This document shows, piece after piece, positions 557 to 53,515 of a DNA stretch of 64,000 nt. The notes beneath the pieces were generated by a model. The model was not told the origin of the DNA. It saw only the letters and a list, made by a program, of their open reading frames with translations, and ran no database searches. The stretch is from Clostridia bacterium (GTDB taxonomy: Bacteria; Bacillota; Clostridia; Oscillospirales; Acutalibacteraceae). A program made the translations under genes and the position numbers. The number at the start of each line of letters is the position of its first letter. The stretch's first letter is position 1. The DNA lies in the NCBI GenBank assembly GCA_017399405.1, contig JAFQCT010000007.1, forward strand, positions 1 through 64,000, written 5' to 3'.

Positions 557-1855
557 ATGAAAGATAATATTATTTTCTATTTTTCTGACCAGCAAAGATT
601 TGATACCGTAAATAGCGAGATTATGCCTAATCTTATGGCATTGGCAAGTGAGGGTACATTCTTTGAAAACTGTTATACTTGTCAGCCTGTTTGCGGTCCT
701 GCAAGAGCAAGTTTACAAACGGGTGTTTATCCTACTGAATGTGGTTGCCATATAAATGGAATACCACTTTGTGATGATGCAATATCCCTTGCAGATTATT
801 TTAACGAAAATGGTTATGATACTGCGTATATCGGTAAATTGCACCTCGCTTCAGGTAAAAATGATGGGGAAAATATTAAATGTGAAAATACTGCAATTCC
901 CGAAAATAGACTTTGGGGTTATAAGTACTTCCGTGGTGCTGATGTGCTTGAATTTACCTCTCACGGTTACGATGGTTATGTGTTTGACGAAAAGGGTAAT
1001 AAAATAGAATTTGAGGGCTATCGTGCAGATAGAATAAATGATTTTGCAATTGAATATATTGAAAATCATAATAACGATAAACCATTTTTCTTGTTTATTT
1101 CTCAACTTGAGCCTCATCACCAGAATGACCACAAAAGATTTGAGGGTCCAAAAGAAAAGGTTGAAAAATATAAAGATTATCCAATCCCTGAAGATTTAGC
1201 ACACTTAAAAGGTAATTATAAAGAACAATACCCCGATTACCTTGCAGCAATAGAAAGTCTAGATGATAATCTTGGCAGACTTGTTGAAACTCTCAAGAAA
1301 AAAGGTGTTTACGATAACACTACAATTATATACACTTCTGACCACGGTTGCCATTTCAAAACAAGAAATGCAGAGTATAAGCGTAGTTGCCACGATGCAT
1401 CAATCCATATTCCACTTGTAATTAAAGGTAACGGATTTGAAAAGGGTAAAATCGAAAGTAAAATTGTAAGTTTAATTGATTTACCACCAACAATCCTTTA
1501 TTCTGGTTTAATATATCCACCTGAATATTATCAAGGCAAAGCAATTCAAGAAAAAGGTGACTATGGTTTTGCTTTTGTTCAGATTAGTGAAAGTCAGTGT
1601 GGTCGTGCAATAAGAACAAAAGATTATACATATTCAGTTTCTTGTGCAAAATTTTTATCATCATATTCAAATATTTATTTTGAAGATTATCTTTATGACA
1701 ACACAAAAGATAAAGCACAGAAACATAATTTAATCAAATCGAAAGATTATGATAAAATAAGAAAAGCGTTAAAAACACACTTGTTAAATCAAATTGAAAA
1801 AATTGAGGGTAAAAGACCAATTATTTTACCTCGAATATTCATAAAACACAAATAA
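557..1855 (+). CDS. sulfatase (formylglycine-dependent, Cys type)
   Basis: A 432-residue alkaline-phosphatase-fold hydrolase of the type I sulfatase family, expected to cleave sulfate esters. The signature C-x-P-x-R-x4-T-G is complete (CGPARASLQTG), with Cys46 as the residue to be oxidised to formylglycine. The N-terminal metal motif reads FSDQQR rather than the more usual D-D-Q, a variant seen in many Firmicutes sulfatases. A second metal-site segment, YTSDHG, is near residue 260. No signal peptide is visible, so it is probably cytoplasmic and may act on imported sulfated sugars. It stands alone between two terminator/promoter regions. No sulfatase-maturing enzyme or sugar transporter lies in the window. 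Substrate unknown. Confidence 0.88.
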   Translation: MKDNIIFYFSDQQRFDTVNSEIMPNLMALASEGTFFENCYTCQPVCGPARASLQTGVYPTECGCHINGIPLCDDAISLADYFNENGYDTAYIGKLHLASGKNDGENIKCENTAIPENRLWGYKYFRGADVLEFTSHGYDGYVFDEKGNKIEFEGYRADRINDFAIEYIENHNNDKPFFLFISQLEPHHQNDHKRFEGPKEKVEKYKDYPIPEDLAHLKGNYKEQYPDYLAAIESLDDNLGRLVETLKKKGVYDNTTIIYTSDHGCHFKTRNAEYKRSCHDASIHIPLVIKGNGFEKGKIESKIVSLIDLPPTILYSGLIYPPEYYQGKAIQEKGDYGFAFVQISESQCGRAIRTKDYTYSVSCAKFLSSYSNIYFEDYLYDNTKDKAQKHNLIKSKDYDKIRKALKTHLLNQIEKIEGKRPIILPRIFIKHK

Positions 1856-49223: not shown

Positions 49224-50759
49224 ATGAAAAAACCTGTAGTTTTATGTATTATGGACGGTTTTGGTTACAACCCAAGTGATTACGGTAATGCAATCATAGC
49301 GGCAAAAACACCAAGACTTGACGAAATTTTTAAGAATAATCCAATGACTTATATCGGTGCATCAGGTATGGATGTTGGTCTTCCTGATGGTCAGATGGGT
49401 AACTCTGAGGTTGGCCACACTAATATCGGTGCAGGTCGTGTTGTTTATCAAGAACTCACAAGAATCACAAAATCAATTATGGATGGTGATTTCTTTGAGA
49501 ATGATGTGTTTATGGGTGCAATTGAGAATTGTAAGAAAAACAATTCAGCACTTCACCTTATCGGTCTTCTTTCTGATGGTGGTGTTCATAGCCATAACAC
49601 ACATTTATATGCACTTGTTGAACTTGCAAAGAAAAATGGTCTCGATAAAGTATTTGTTCACGCTTTACTTGACGGTCGTGATGTTCCACCAAGTTCAGGT
49701 GTTGATTTTATTAAAGAACTTGAAGATAAACTTGCAGAAATTGGTGTAGGTAAAATTGCTACAGTTATGGGTAGATTTTACGCTATGGACCGTGACAATA
49801 TGTGGGACAGAGTTGGTATGGCTTACAATGCAATGGTTAACCGTGAAGGTATTGCAACTGATTCTGCACTTGAAGCAGTTAAAAAGTCATACGAAACTAT
49901 TGATGAAGACGGTAAATATCTTACTGACGAATTTGTTATGCCAACAGTTGTTAATGGTGCAGATGCAATTTCTGCAAACGATTCAGTAATCTTCTTTAAC
50001 TTCCGTCCTGATAGAGCAAGAGAAATCACAAGAACTTTTGTTGACCCTGATTTTACAGGATTTGAGCGTAAAGAATTCTTCCCACTTTACTATGTATGTA
50101 TGACTCAGTATGATGCTGAAATGCCAAATGTAAATGTTGCATATAAGCCTGAGGCTCTTACAAATACAATGGGTGAGTATCTTTCAAAACTCGGTAAAAC
50201 TCAGCTTCGTATTGCTGAAACACAGAAGTATGCTCATGTAACATTTTTCTATAATGGTGGCGAAGAAAAGGTTTATCCGGGTGAAGACAGAGTTCTTATT
50301 GACTCTCCAAAGATTTCAACATTTGACTTAAAGCCTGAAATGAGTGCATACGAAGTTTGTGATGCAGCTTGTGAACAGATTTTAAGCGGTAAATATGATG
50401 TTGTTATCCTTAACTACGCTAACTGCGATATGGTTGGTCATACAGGTATTTTTGATGCTGCTGTTAAGGCTGTTGAAGCAGTTGACGAGTGTGTTGGCAA
50501 ACTTGTTGATGCAGTAGAAAAAATGGATGGCGTAATTCTTATTACAGCTGACCATGGTAATGCAGATAAAATGTATGAAGATGATGGCTCACCATTTACT
50601 GCTCATACAACTAACCCTGTTCCATTGGTTGTAGTAGGTAAAGAATGCACTCTTAAACAAGAGGGCGGTAAACTTTGCGACCTTTCTCCAACAATGCTTG
50701 ACATTATGGGACTCGATATTCCTGCTGAAATGAACGGCGTGTCACTTATCGAAAAATAA
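49224..50759 (+). CDS. gpmI: 2,3-bisphosphoglycerate-independent phosphoglycerate mutase
   Basis: GpmI is a Mn-dependent mutase converting 3- to 2-phosphoglycerate. The 511-residue protein of the alkaline phosphatase superfamily has the metal-binding CIMDGFG, the phosphoserine loop DGQMGNSEVGHTNIGAGR, LLSDGGVHSH and TADHGNAD. Mn-dependent phosphoglycerate mutases are pH sensitive and have been linked to spore metabolism in Bacillus. The gene ends the glycolytic run; enolase is not nearby. A strong terminator follows. Confidence 0.97.
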   Translation: MKKPVVLCIMDGFGYNPSDYGNAIIAAKTPRLDEIFKNNPMTYIGASGMDVGLPDGQMGNSEVGHTNIGAGRVVYQELTRITKSIMDGDFFENDVFMGAIENCKKNNSALHLIGLLSDGGVHSHNTHLYALVELAKKNGLDKVFVHALLDGRDVPPSSGVDFIKELEDKLAEIGVGKIATVMGRFYAMDRDNMWDRVGMAYNAMVNREGIATDSALEAVKKSYETIDEDGKYLTDEFVMPTVVNGADAISANDSVIFFNFRPDRAREITRTFVDPDFTGFERKEFFPLYYVCMTQYDAEMPNVNVAYKPEALTNTMGEYLSKLGKTQLRIAETQKYAHVTFFYNGGEEKVYPGEDRVLIDSPKISTFDLKPEMSAYEVCDAACEQILSGKYDVVILNYANCDMVGHTGIFDAAVKAVEAVDECVGKLVDAVEKMDGVILITADHGNADKMYEDDGSPFTAHTTNPVPLVVVGKECTLKQEGGKLCDLSPTMLDIMGLDIPAEMNGVSLIEK

Positions 50760-50774
50760 TTATTAATTGTAGTT

Positions 50775-50808
50775 ATGGACTTCACTTTTATAGTGAAGTC
50801 CATTTTTA
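50775..50808 (+). terminator. terminator after gpmI
   Basis: ATGGACTTCACT (50775-50786) pairs perfectly with AGTGAAGTCCAT (50792-50803), loop of 5, then five T. Confidence 0.88.
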
Positions 50809-50857
50809 ATTTATCAATATTGTTGATTTTTATGAAAAATAGTGTTAAACTACAAAT

Positions 50858-51030
50858 GCCAAACAAATTTAATTTTTTAGCTCACTATTAGTATGTGTAT
50901 TTTTATTGTTTTTGGTAAAAATACAGATGCTCTATTTGCATATACTTTTGGTGAGTAATGTAGATTTGTTTGGCGACAGTTGGAGCTATGTATTTTTCGT
51001 GCGTTGGCTTTGGCTGGCGCACTTTTTATT
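50858..51030 (+). ncRNA. candidate structured non-coding RNA with own terminator
   Basis: This 392-base gap between genes (50760-51151) folds into nested helices. Outer helix GCCAAACAAAT (50858-50868) with ATTTGTTTGGC (50964-50974) is a perfect 11 bp. Inside it CTCAC (50881-50885) pairs with GTGAG (50951-50955), and AGTAT (50890-50894) with ATACT (50942-50946). The apical helix is TGTATTTTTA (50896-50905) with TAAAAATACA (50916-50925), a perfect 10 bp. Then a terminator-like GTGCG/CGCAC stem (50999-51003, 51018-51022) leads into TTTTTATTTT. A weak promoter TTGATT-17-TAAACT may lie just upstream (near 50823-50851). Not matched to a known class by me; it could also be a dispersed repeat. Confidence 0.5.
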
Positions 51031-51095
51031 TTGTGGAGGAAACTATTATGAATTAATCCGCATAATTTCAAGTTAATAAACTACAATATTTTTTC

Positions 51096-51124
51096 TTGCA
51101 ACATATTATTTAATATGATATTAT
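51096..51124 (+). promoter_or_regulatory. promoter of the BspA-like gene
   Basis: TTGCAA (51096-51101), 17-base spacer, TATTAT (51119-51124), ending 27 bases before the start codon. Confidence 0.55.
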
Positions 51125-51151
51125 AAAATTAGAAAATGGGAGATGAGAGTT

Positions 51152-53515
51152 ATGCGCAAAATACATAAGTTTTTATCAATTATCCTTGCAGTTTTTATAG
51201 TAATATCCATCATTCCAATCACAGCAAGTGCAGCTACATATACAGGCACTTGCGGTGATAATTTAACTTGGACTTATAATACATCATCATACACTTTAAC
51301 TATTTCAGGCATAGGAGCCATATATGATTATGAATATAATAATCGTCCGTGGGAAAGCTATGAAGATAAAATTAAAAATGTTGTTGTTGAAGATGGTGTA
51401 ACATCTATTGGTAACTATTCTTTTTATGGTTGCGGGTATCTTGTTAACGTTACATTACCTGACGGTGTAACAAAGATTGGTCATCGTGCATTTTACAGTT
51501 GCAATTCCCTTGCAAATATAACAATTCCTGACACAGTAACCACTATTGGACAATCTGCATTTTATTATTGCTATTCACTTAAAAGTATCAACATCCCTTA
51601 TGGGATAACAACCATTAGTGCGGGAGCGTTTAATTTATGTGAAAAACTTATAGAAATAACAATTCCTGACAGCGTGACAGAGATTGGAGAATATGCATTT
51701 GCTGGATGTGATGGTCTTACGGAAATAATAATTCCCGATAGTGTAACAACAATTGGGAAACATGCATTTTCTGGATGTTATGGTTTAATAAGTGTAACAA
51801 TAGGTAATGGTGTAACAACGATTGGAAATAGTGCATTTAATAGTTGTAAGGGTCTTACAACTATAACAATCCCCAAAAATGTAGCAACAATTGAAAGTCG
51901 TGCATTTGCAAATTGTGAAAAGCTTACAGGCATAATGGTTGATAATGATAATCAATACTTTGTAAATGATGAATATGGAGTATTGTTTAATCAAGACAAA
52001 ACAACTCTTATGCAGTATCCAATAGGACATACAAGAACAAGTTATACAATTCCTGATGGAGTAACAACAATTGAAGAAATGGCATTCTATAATTGTTTGG
52101 CATTAACAAATGTCACTTTTCCAAATGGTGTTGAAACAATTAATTATTGTGCTTTTGATGGTTGTGCTAATATTACAAGCATAATTCTTCCTGATGGTGT
52201 AACAACAATCGACAGTTGGGCTTTTGGTTCTTGTAGTAGCCTAGAAAGTATAACAATTCCTGCAAGTGTAACAAGAATTAGTAGCAATGCAATTTCATAT
52301 AAGACAACCATTATTTATTATGGCGGTACCGCAAATCAATGGAAACAGTTATTGGCTAATAATCCAGCATCAGAGGGTGGTTATTTAGAAGAAAATATAG
52401 TTTTTTGTGCAGACCAAATGCTTCTTCCTTCAGGTGCTTGTGGTGATAATCTTACATGGTCTTACAATATGCTTACTGGAGTTTTGAGAATTTCAGGTGC
52501 AGGGGATATGTATAATTATGGAACTCACCATCTTTCCCTTACAAATACTCCATGGTCAACTTTCTTAAATGATATTAAGGAAGTTGTTATTGAAGATGGT
52601 GTAACAAGCATTGGTACTTATGCATTTTATGGATGTTCTAATCTTTCTGATGTAAAAATTGGTGACGGAGTAACAACGATTGGTGAGCGTGCATTTGAAT
52701 ATTGTAGAGGTCTTAATACTGTAACAATTGGCAATGGTGTAACAACAATTGAAAAGTATGCATTTAAAGAGTGTACAGGTCTTACAAGTGTTATAATACC
52801 TGTCAGTGTTACAGATATGGATAGTGGAGCCTTTTATAAGTGTTCAGGCATAACTGATGTTTATTATGAAGGCACGGAAGAACAATGGATAGATAATATT
52901 ATTCTTTTTTCTCCTGATAATGCTTTAATAGGTGTTAAAATACCTTTTAATAAGGATGTTACAATTCATTTTAATTATCACATACATAAATATAATTCAG
53001 TAGTATCCGAGCCAACCTGTACAGAGCAAGGTTATACAACATATACCTGTGAATGTGGTGAAAGTTATATTGACAATTATGTTGATGCTACAGGCCATAG
53101 CTATGATTCTGTAGTAACACCACCAACATGCACCGAAAAAGGTTATACAACATACACTTGCGAATGTGGTGATAGTTATGTTGATAATTATGTTGATGCT
53201 ACAGGGCATACTTACGGCGAATGGACTGTAACAAAAGATGCAACCGTTGACACCGAAGGTGAAATGGAAAGAGTATGTCCTTGTGGTGAAAAAGAGTATA
53301 ATGCAATCGAGAAACTCTCTGCAGTTGACGACAAGGAAGAAGTAGAAGATACTAACAAAGAAGATGCAAAAAATCCCGAAATCCCCAACACGGATTATAG
53401 TATAAAGTCATCTGCACACATATTATTTGTGGTTTTTATGTTTGTTTGTGTAGTTCTTTGTAAAATTCCATTCCGCAAGAAAATATATAATTTTACATCA
53501 GGGGTAGTAAAATAG
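51152..53515 (+). CDS. BspA-like leucine-rich-repeat surface protein
   Basis: A 787-residue exported protein. A signal peptide spans residues 1 to about 27 (ending TASAA). Two arrays of LRR_5 repeats of about 23 residues (about 60-385 and 435-590) carry the frame VTTIGxxAFxxCxxLTxITIPDG. Each array is preceded by a CGDNLTWTYN or CGDNLTWSYN module. Near the C-terminus are two copies of a Cys-rich unit around PTCTEKGYTTYTCECG, then an acidic linker, a transmembrane helix (about 757-775) and a short basic tail. It probably binds host or bacterial surface ligands. ATG 51152 is chosen over 51143, which lies against the GGGAG site. Its end overlaps the end of spmB by 18 bases on the opposite strand. 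Confidence 0.9.
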   Translation: MRKIHKFLSIILAVFIVISIIPITASAATYTGTCGDNLTWTYNTSSYTLTISGIGAIYDYEYNNRPWESYEDKIKNVVVEDGVTSIGNYSFYGCGYLVNVTLPDGVTKIGHRAFYSCNSLANITIPDTVTTIGQSAFYYCYSLKSINIPYGITTISAGAFNLCEKLIEITIPDSVTEIGEYAFAGCDGLTEIIIPDSVTTIGKHAFSGCYGLISVTIGNGVTTIGNSAFNSCKGLTTITIPKNVATIESRAFANCEKLTGIMVDNDNQYFVNDEYGVLFNQDKTTLMQYPIGHTRTSYTIPDGVTTIEEMAFYNCLALTNVTFPNGVETINYCAFDGCANITSIILPDGVTTIDSWAFGSCSSLESITIPASVTRISSNAISYKTTIIYYGGTANQWKQLLANNPASEGGYLEENIVFCADQMLLPSGACGDNLTWSYNMLTGVLRISGAGDMYNYGTHHLSLTNTPWSTFLNDIKEVVIEDGVTSIGTYAFYGCSNLSDVKIGDGVTTIGERAFEYCRGLNTVTIGNGVTTIEKYAFKECTGLTSVIIPVSVTDMDSGAFYKCSGITDVYYEGTEEQWIDNIILFSPDNALIGVKIPFNKDVTIHFNYHIHKYNSVVSEPTCTEQGYTTYTCECGESYIDNYVDATGHSYDSVVTPPTCTEKGYTTYTCECGDSYVDNYVDATGHTYGEWTVTKDATVDTEGEMERVCPCGEKEYNAIEKLSAVDDKEEVEDTNKEDAKNPEIPNTDYSIKSSAHILFVVFMFVCVVLCKIPFRKKIYNFTSGVVK

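Follow-up and report, generated by a model that had tools for sequence, protein, structure and literature searches.

A putative riboswitch-like attenuator RNA carrying its own promoter in uncultured gut Clostridia

The element at 50858-51030 of the window (the whole 64,000-nt stretch of Clostridia DNA analysed) is probably a riboswitch-like attenuator that acts in cis on transcription and comes with a sigma-A-type promoter of its own. It belongs to what is apparently a large, undescribed family of self-contained RNA switches in uncultured gut Clostridia, for which comparative sequence data show a common promoter profile, a set of pairings, some of them mutually exclusive, and a characteristic position relative to genes.

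The element in the window

The element lies between gpmI (end 50759) and the ORF of an LRR protein (Table 1). A preliminary description, made from the letters alone, had called it a gene-free structured RNA of unknown class. The stretch is gene-free except for a single overlapping ORF (50877-51071, minus strand, 64 aa), which is without support. The predicted RNA folds at -61.3 kcal/mol against a mean of -33.9 (sd 3.4) for shuffled sequences (z -8.1; equalled by 0 of 200 shuffles), which upholds the structured RNA. At the gathering score of Rfam 15 the element is unmatched in the window, where two tRNAs are the only matches, and in 20 loci, in line with an unknown class. A permissive Rfam scan of the window gave nothing over the element; in four loci, 17 of 18 rows of a permissive scan lay outside elements, the one overlap being sub-threshold (SR6 antitoxin, L024, 1465-1566; 22.6 of 55 bits, E 4.1).

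P1 forms the outer stem of the RNA fold. The 11-bp helix of the preliminary description was recovered as P4; it is present in the centroid and absent from the minimum-energy fold, in which the antiterminator replaces the terminator. Two terminator-like sites were found in 50700-51200, where 0.2 are expected: the stem and T-run that close the element, as already described, and the terminator of gpmI (50775-50803). The SD (GGAGGA, 51035-51040) and the ATG-AAT-TAA that follows it (51048-51056) were likewise confirmed. The promoter of the window copy agrees with the consensus at 8 of 12 positions; with a threshold of 9, the promoter scan hence does not list it. That scan found three promoter-like sites, including the one before the LRR gene, against 3.4 expected, i.e. 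chance frequency. The family promoter, the pseudoknot and the antiterminator go beyond the preliminary description, and the latter two compete with helices drawn in it.

Table 1 Features of the element and its surroundings in the window.
Feature	Position	Strand	Basis
Promoter: TTGATT, 17-nt spacer, TAAACT, TG at -15/-14	50823-50851	+	Sequence; matches arrangement of 150-copy profile
P1 5' arm, pairs with 50961-50974	50858-50871	+	Fold; covariation in 104 copies
P2/P3 domain, sequence-variable	50880-50956	+	Single-copy folds by eye; outside covariance model
P4 apical hairpin 50897-50907/50914-50924, competitor of pseudoknot	50897-50924	+	Fold centroid
Pseudoknot apical strand	50915-50933	+	Duplex calculation, covariation, family alignment
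P1 3' arm	50961-50974	+	Fold, covariation
Linker; partner is the apical strand (pseudoknot) or, via 50977-50993, 50999-51016 (antiterminator)	50975-50998	+	Fold, duplexes
Intrinsic terminator, stem 50999-51022 plus T-run	50999-51027	+	Terminator scan, covariation
SD and two-codon ORF ATG-AAT-TAA, site of gene start in other copies	51035-51056	+	Sequence; similar remnant in L247
Separate promoter-like site TTGCAA-17-TATTAT before LRR gene	51096-51124	+	Consensus match only
BspA-type LRR secreted protein, closest gene downstream, SD-supported start 51152	51152-53515	+	ORF, Pfam

Promoter and competing pairings across the family

The 169 rows of A4 and A5 were reduced to 150 non-redundant copies by dropping 10 that were weak antisense matches, short or truncated and 9 that were >92% identical. 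Upstream of P1 these copies share a promoter profile, with T98 T91 G87 A66 C44 (%) at positions -35 to -31, a best spacer to the -10 box of 17 nt in 122 of the 150, and an extended -10 motif (T-15 at 96%, G-14 at 94%). The -10 box ends 6 nt upstream of P1, which would place the transcription start on the first P1 base (50858 in the window).

Covariation was examined in A7, an alignment of 104 copies from 100 loci, which were hand-chosen among the 167 searched, and fitted to a model containing P1, P4 and the terminator. P1 covaries strongly; P2 differs in sequence, yet all 16 copies whose folds were inspected by eye contain it. P4 contains a nearly invariant UUUUU/AAAAA, and its flanking pairs form an antiparallel helix (columns 110-224: UG 54, CG 23, UA 22). 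A U.A-U triple helix, raised by the near-invariance of three U/A/U runs, is not favoured, the flanks acting as ordinary antiparallel P4. There are two subtypes, short (~150-195 nt) and long (~205-230 nt); in the long subtype, as judged by eye, a different hairpin around the same A-run substitutes for P4.

The linker 3' of P1 (about GGAGYUAUGCRUUUUUY) has its complement in an apical strand (about GGUAAAAAUGCAUGCUC). In duplex calculations on the 150 copies, in which five linkers were truncated (12 letters) and for which the permutation and shuffle statistics ignore phylogeny, the pseudoknot duplex has a mean of -15.1 kcal/mol for native pairs, -13.1 for permuted pairs and -4.5 for shuffled sequence. 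It reaches -8 kcal/mol or lower in 146 of 150 copies (native versus permuted z -13.4), a pairing by which the conserved upstream domain would be coupled to the expression platform. The antiterminator duplex, linker with terminator 5' arm, reaches the same value in 134 of 150 copies (permutation z -9.0), and the control pairing of apical strand with terminator arm in 28 of 150, without excess (z +1.5). The window copy gives computed duplexes of -13.8 (pseudoknot) and -17.1 kcal/mol (antiterminator). Its pseudoknot duplex joins 50917-50925 with 50989-50997 and 50929-50933 with 50982-50986 (overall 50917-50933/50982-50997), and G50915 pairs with C50998 in the family alignment.

When all column pairs of A7 were scanned, the top covarying pair outside the model was 131-324 (GC in 60 rows, AU in 22; z 18.5), located just outside the A5-U5 block, where it extends the pseudoknot. 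Weaker covariation was found for the antiterminator (302-360, z 6.2; 308-341, z 5.3) and weak covariation for further pseudoknot pairs (229-312, z 4.0; 224-317, z 3.6), and some columns that do not form base pairs outrank these weaker pairs (293-298, z 12.1; 5-298, z 10.2). At columns 5/293 and 298/299, P1 type (GCCAAAC or GCGACAC) correlates with the dinucleotide that follows P1 (GA or AG), either as a lineage effect or through a tertiary contact.

For P1, pseudoknot and terminator together, 97.1% of cells are paired, both sides have changed in 25 of 37 pairs, and double-change cells number 392 against a shuffle mean of 114 (shuffles ignore phylogeny here too). Among the 14 pseudoknot pairs besides 131-324, three are invariant and only four have double changes. 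The antiterminator has 94.7% of cells paired and 27 double-change cells (shuffle mean 11); taken alone, five of its pairs have double changes against 4.1 in shuffles, 156 of 500 of which reach five. Terminator and antiterminator, which share the terminator 5' arm, are mutually exclusive, with only modest covariation at the level of single pairs. The end that the preliminary description ascribed to the element is read here as a regulated terminator.

Antiterminator minus terminator energy has a median of -1.25 kcal/mol, the antiterminator being better in 71 of 104 copies, and with energies this close the 3' part would be poised between the two. The pseudoknot/terminator state as a whole is ~6 kcal/mol better if no loop penalty is charged for the pseudoknot. 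One A-run is common to P4 and the pseudoknot, which defines two exclusive sets, P4 with antiterminator and pseudoknot with terminator. A leader peptide in the linker, suggested by an AUG after GGAG, was rejected by eye, as the spacing is too short and the AUG is not invariant.

Distribution, downstream genes and spread

In the window's own genome the element is single-copy (blastn self match E 1e-155, next 0.02; one match of R1, a covariance model built from an alignment of 16 short-type copies). Within the genus, blastn found matches in 18 of 40 genomes. The linker-terminator motif is present, with differing flanks, in 44 of 46 loci (L011-L056, among them that of the window and one record from a phage collection). 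The weak blastn loci L027 and L028 are not members. At an E-value limit of 0.01, R1 matched 20 of 40 genomes in the genus (at most 8 matches per genome), 111 of 300 in the family draw and 87 of 245 in the order draw; at 0.001, it matched 80 of 291 in the class draw and, in the phylum draw, which includes some genomes of the class, a single genome out of 299, that of the window. The draws overlap in genomes, and those of more than 40 genomes were searched with stricter filters, by which weak matches are lost. A genome often holds several copies, some of them in tandem, with at least 11 R1 matches in one genome of the order draw; per-genome counts in the family, order, class and phylum draws come from 9 to 11 scored candidates and are lower bounds. 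The consensus pattern was found in at least 119 stretches of GTDB contigs. Among the 80 matches listed, 69 carry an R1 match, and 68 of those 69 are titled Clostridia, Oscillospiraceae, Ruminococcaceae, Eubacterium or similar, with ruminants in many titles. One copy (L163, JAMPEQ010000001.1, 3564-3739) is in a MAG titled Bacteroides sp., through a mis-binned contig or transfer. Multi-copy occurrence scattered in relatives, together with covariation, bears out the earlier suggestion of a dispersed family.

Gene position was counted for the 131 of 150 copies with 500 nt on both sides. A same-strand SD and ORF of at least 40 aa lies within 60 nt downstream of 78 of these; the controls gave 2 of 131 (antisense, going away from the 5' end) and 49 of 655 (random points). 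ORF starts peak 15-24 nt past the end of the match. Family-wide this points to a 5'-leader position, which is loose in the window's copy. It is improbable that these are stand-alone small RNA genes acting in trans, with incidental gene nearness and a constitutive terminator. Promoter and terminator do belong to the unit, such an ORF start is missing from the 60 nt after 53 of 131 copies (and from the 300 nt after 27 of 131), tandem copies without an intact intervening gene occur in L246 and L247, and the window's gene, which starts 124 nt past the T-run, has a promoter-like site of its own; against this, the antiterminator pairing of 134 of 150 copies and the sharp peak of SD and start just past the terminator argue for a leader. 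The stand-alone small RNA envisaged in the preliminary description is therefore the less likely reading for the family, and could still apply to the window copy taken alone.

The window copy is atypical among these leaders: its mini-ORF, ATG-AAT-TAA, is probably a vestigial start, and its coupling to the LRR gene is loose. Comparable mini-ORFs occur at L013 (MR and stop) and L046 (MNKFI and stop), each before a protein related to the window LRR protein (50% and 52% identity, respectively). Duplication of the cassette together with a gene start could be the source of such mini-ORFs. In L103, two copies (965-1133, minus strand; 1501-1655, plus strand) form a back-to-back pair in which each precedes an ORF of its own, resembling a divergent regulatory region.

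Pfam and PADLOC were run on 102 of 111 downstream proteins. The most frequent Pfam assignments are BspA LRR (23 of 102) and double zinc ribbon (7); HTH, SLH, dockerin, ABC and AMP-binding domains occur in 2 or 3 proteins each among the first 25 of 80 Pfam families, SLH in 2. A simple N-terminal test of all 111 proteins classed 51 as signal/membrane-like, 12 as lipobox-like, 10 as zinc-ribbon-like and 38 as other. No defence theme emerged from PADLOC, the 21 families matched having 1-3 of the 102 proteins each and nothing in common, with some strong matches (type II methyltransferase, PDC-S29).

Seven loci selected for tandem copies (L246 to L252) hold 17 matches. Three tandem copies ~200 nt apart are present in L246 (G464:C48, 653-1211), the second and third reading differently in linker, apical strand and terminator. 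Pairing was computed for copies 1 and 2 of this locus; although linker, apical strand and terminator arm all differ between the two, those of copy 2 still pair. In L247 (G160:C246, copies at 494-649 and 744-898), MAYSNFD and stop after the first copy is a seven-codon remnant of the MARSNFA... start after the second. Tandem copies, and a copy 86% identical in another genome with different flanks, suggest that the unit duplicates and gets recruited by unrelated genes.

Dispersal in many copies, the changed flanks of the 86% identical copy and tandem duplication with a remnant of a gene start would also suit a dispersed palindromic repeat or MITE-like mobile element without a regulatory role, the P1 arms serving as terminal inverted repeats. 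This is very improbable, as conservation passes P1 both ways, to the promoter and to the terminator/SD, instead of being bounded by inverted repeats, changes are compensatory at the RNA level, and orientation to the downstream gene is fixed. The same extent of conservation, from promoter through terminator to SD, makes a transposon end, which the preliminary description had named as grounds for refutation, unlikely.

A phage origin was rejected, since the lone phage-collection match (L041; MT835845.1, titled Bacteriophage sp.) has chromosome-like genes by eye (ClpB end, YicC-like, aminotransferase-like and others) and appears chromosomal. Two IMG/VR contigs (L234 and L235) hold a copy cut at the 3' end; in L234 (IMGVR_UViG_3300024269_003064) several recombinase-like ORFs were noted by eye. 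The element is unmatched in plasmids.

Proposed switch and comparison with known systems

From the conserved arrangement we infer transcription of the RNA, the direction of switching and a signal acting on the P1-P4 domain. Transcription would begin at P1 and the leader would fold as P1-P2-P3-P4. The emerging linker may then open P4 by invasion and take the apical strand as its partner; the resulting pseudoknot would keep the linker off the terminator 5' arm, allowing the terminator to form (OFF). Were P4 held, the linker would instead pair with the terminator 5' arm as antiterminator, and polymerase would read into the gene (ON). In the window, the switch would govern read-through towards the LRR gene, which itself has a promoter-like site.

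Since pairing accounts for most conserved bases, a ligand pocket is not conspicuous. As to the signal, our guess falls on a small molecule or ion as readily as on everything else together, next on an RNA-binding protein, and last on another cue (temperature, polymerase speed or a trans-acting RNA). If the leader were bound not by a small molecule but by an RNA-binding protein acting in trans, with P4 or the pseudoknot stabilised as a result, this would be a form of the attenuator proposed here and does not exclude it; diverse targets without a common pathway resemble a global regulon and an aptamer pocket is not evident, but the protein search, which covered GGDEF only, provides no candidate protein, and we consider this form somewhat unlikely. 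c-di-GMP is an unlikely signal: a match to GGDEF, the domain of c-di-GMP-producing proteins, is present in 12 of 20 element-bearing genomes of the genus (two in the window's genome) and absent from the other 8, of which 5 are at least 94% complete.

More tentatively, and with the balance of opinion tipping slightly against it, the family may constitute a new, class-restricted and abundant riboswitch class that travels as a cassette of promoter, sensor, terminator and ribosome site, so that in gut Clostridia a single signal would control many unrelated genes for envelope and accessory functions. If so, this would be an orphan RNA switch family that reaches at least 11 matches in one genome without an Rfam 15 match; its signal would be a common cue setting surface LRR proteins, lipoproteins and other accessory genes in uncultured gut bacteria, and a switch with its own fixed-position promoter would suggest how regulatory RNAs spread among unrelated genes.

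The available text of PMC6429828 describes the SLH motif, a riboswitch candidate with 80 examples in Synergistaceae, Clostridia and Negativicutes, upstream of genes for surface-layer or unknown proteins; the downstream genes are similar (SLH in 2 of 102 here), and the likeness is one of description. Clostridiales-1 RNA, reported from Clostridiales of the human gut in the available text of PMC2864571, has the same host group and habitat, but differs in having an Rfam accession (RF01699), which is unmatched in the element scans. The available text of PMC8040213, PMC11109978, PMC8632094, PMC2864571 and PMC6429828, supplements aside, contains no fitting description, and the 3161 candidates of PMC8040213 may include the element without naming it. 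6S RNA (RF00013) resembles the element as a long hairpin RNA of ~170-190 nt. It was rejected, as it had been in the preliminary description, the element having no RF00013 match and both matches in the genome lying elsewhere (the genome's own 6S RNA at G000:C14:183341-183532, 61.1 bits).

Transcription-terminating riboswitches with pseudoknotted aptamers include ZTP/pfl, fluoride/crcB and preQ1, in which a 5'-leader pseudoknot is coupled to an intrinsic terminator lying ahead of the SD. The element resembles these in being a 5' leader with a pseudoknot coupled to a pre-SD intrinsic terminator. It differs from them in that the very strand used in the antiterminator is the partner of its apical strand, in having no Rfam match, in the fixed position of a promoter within the unit, and in its targets, which are unrelated accessory genes.
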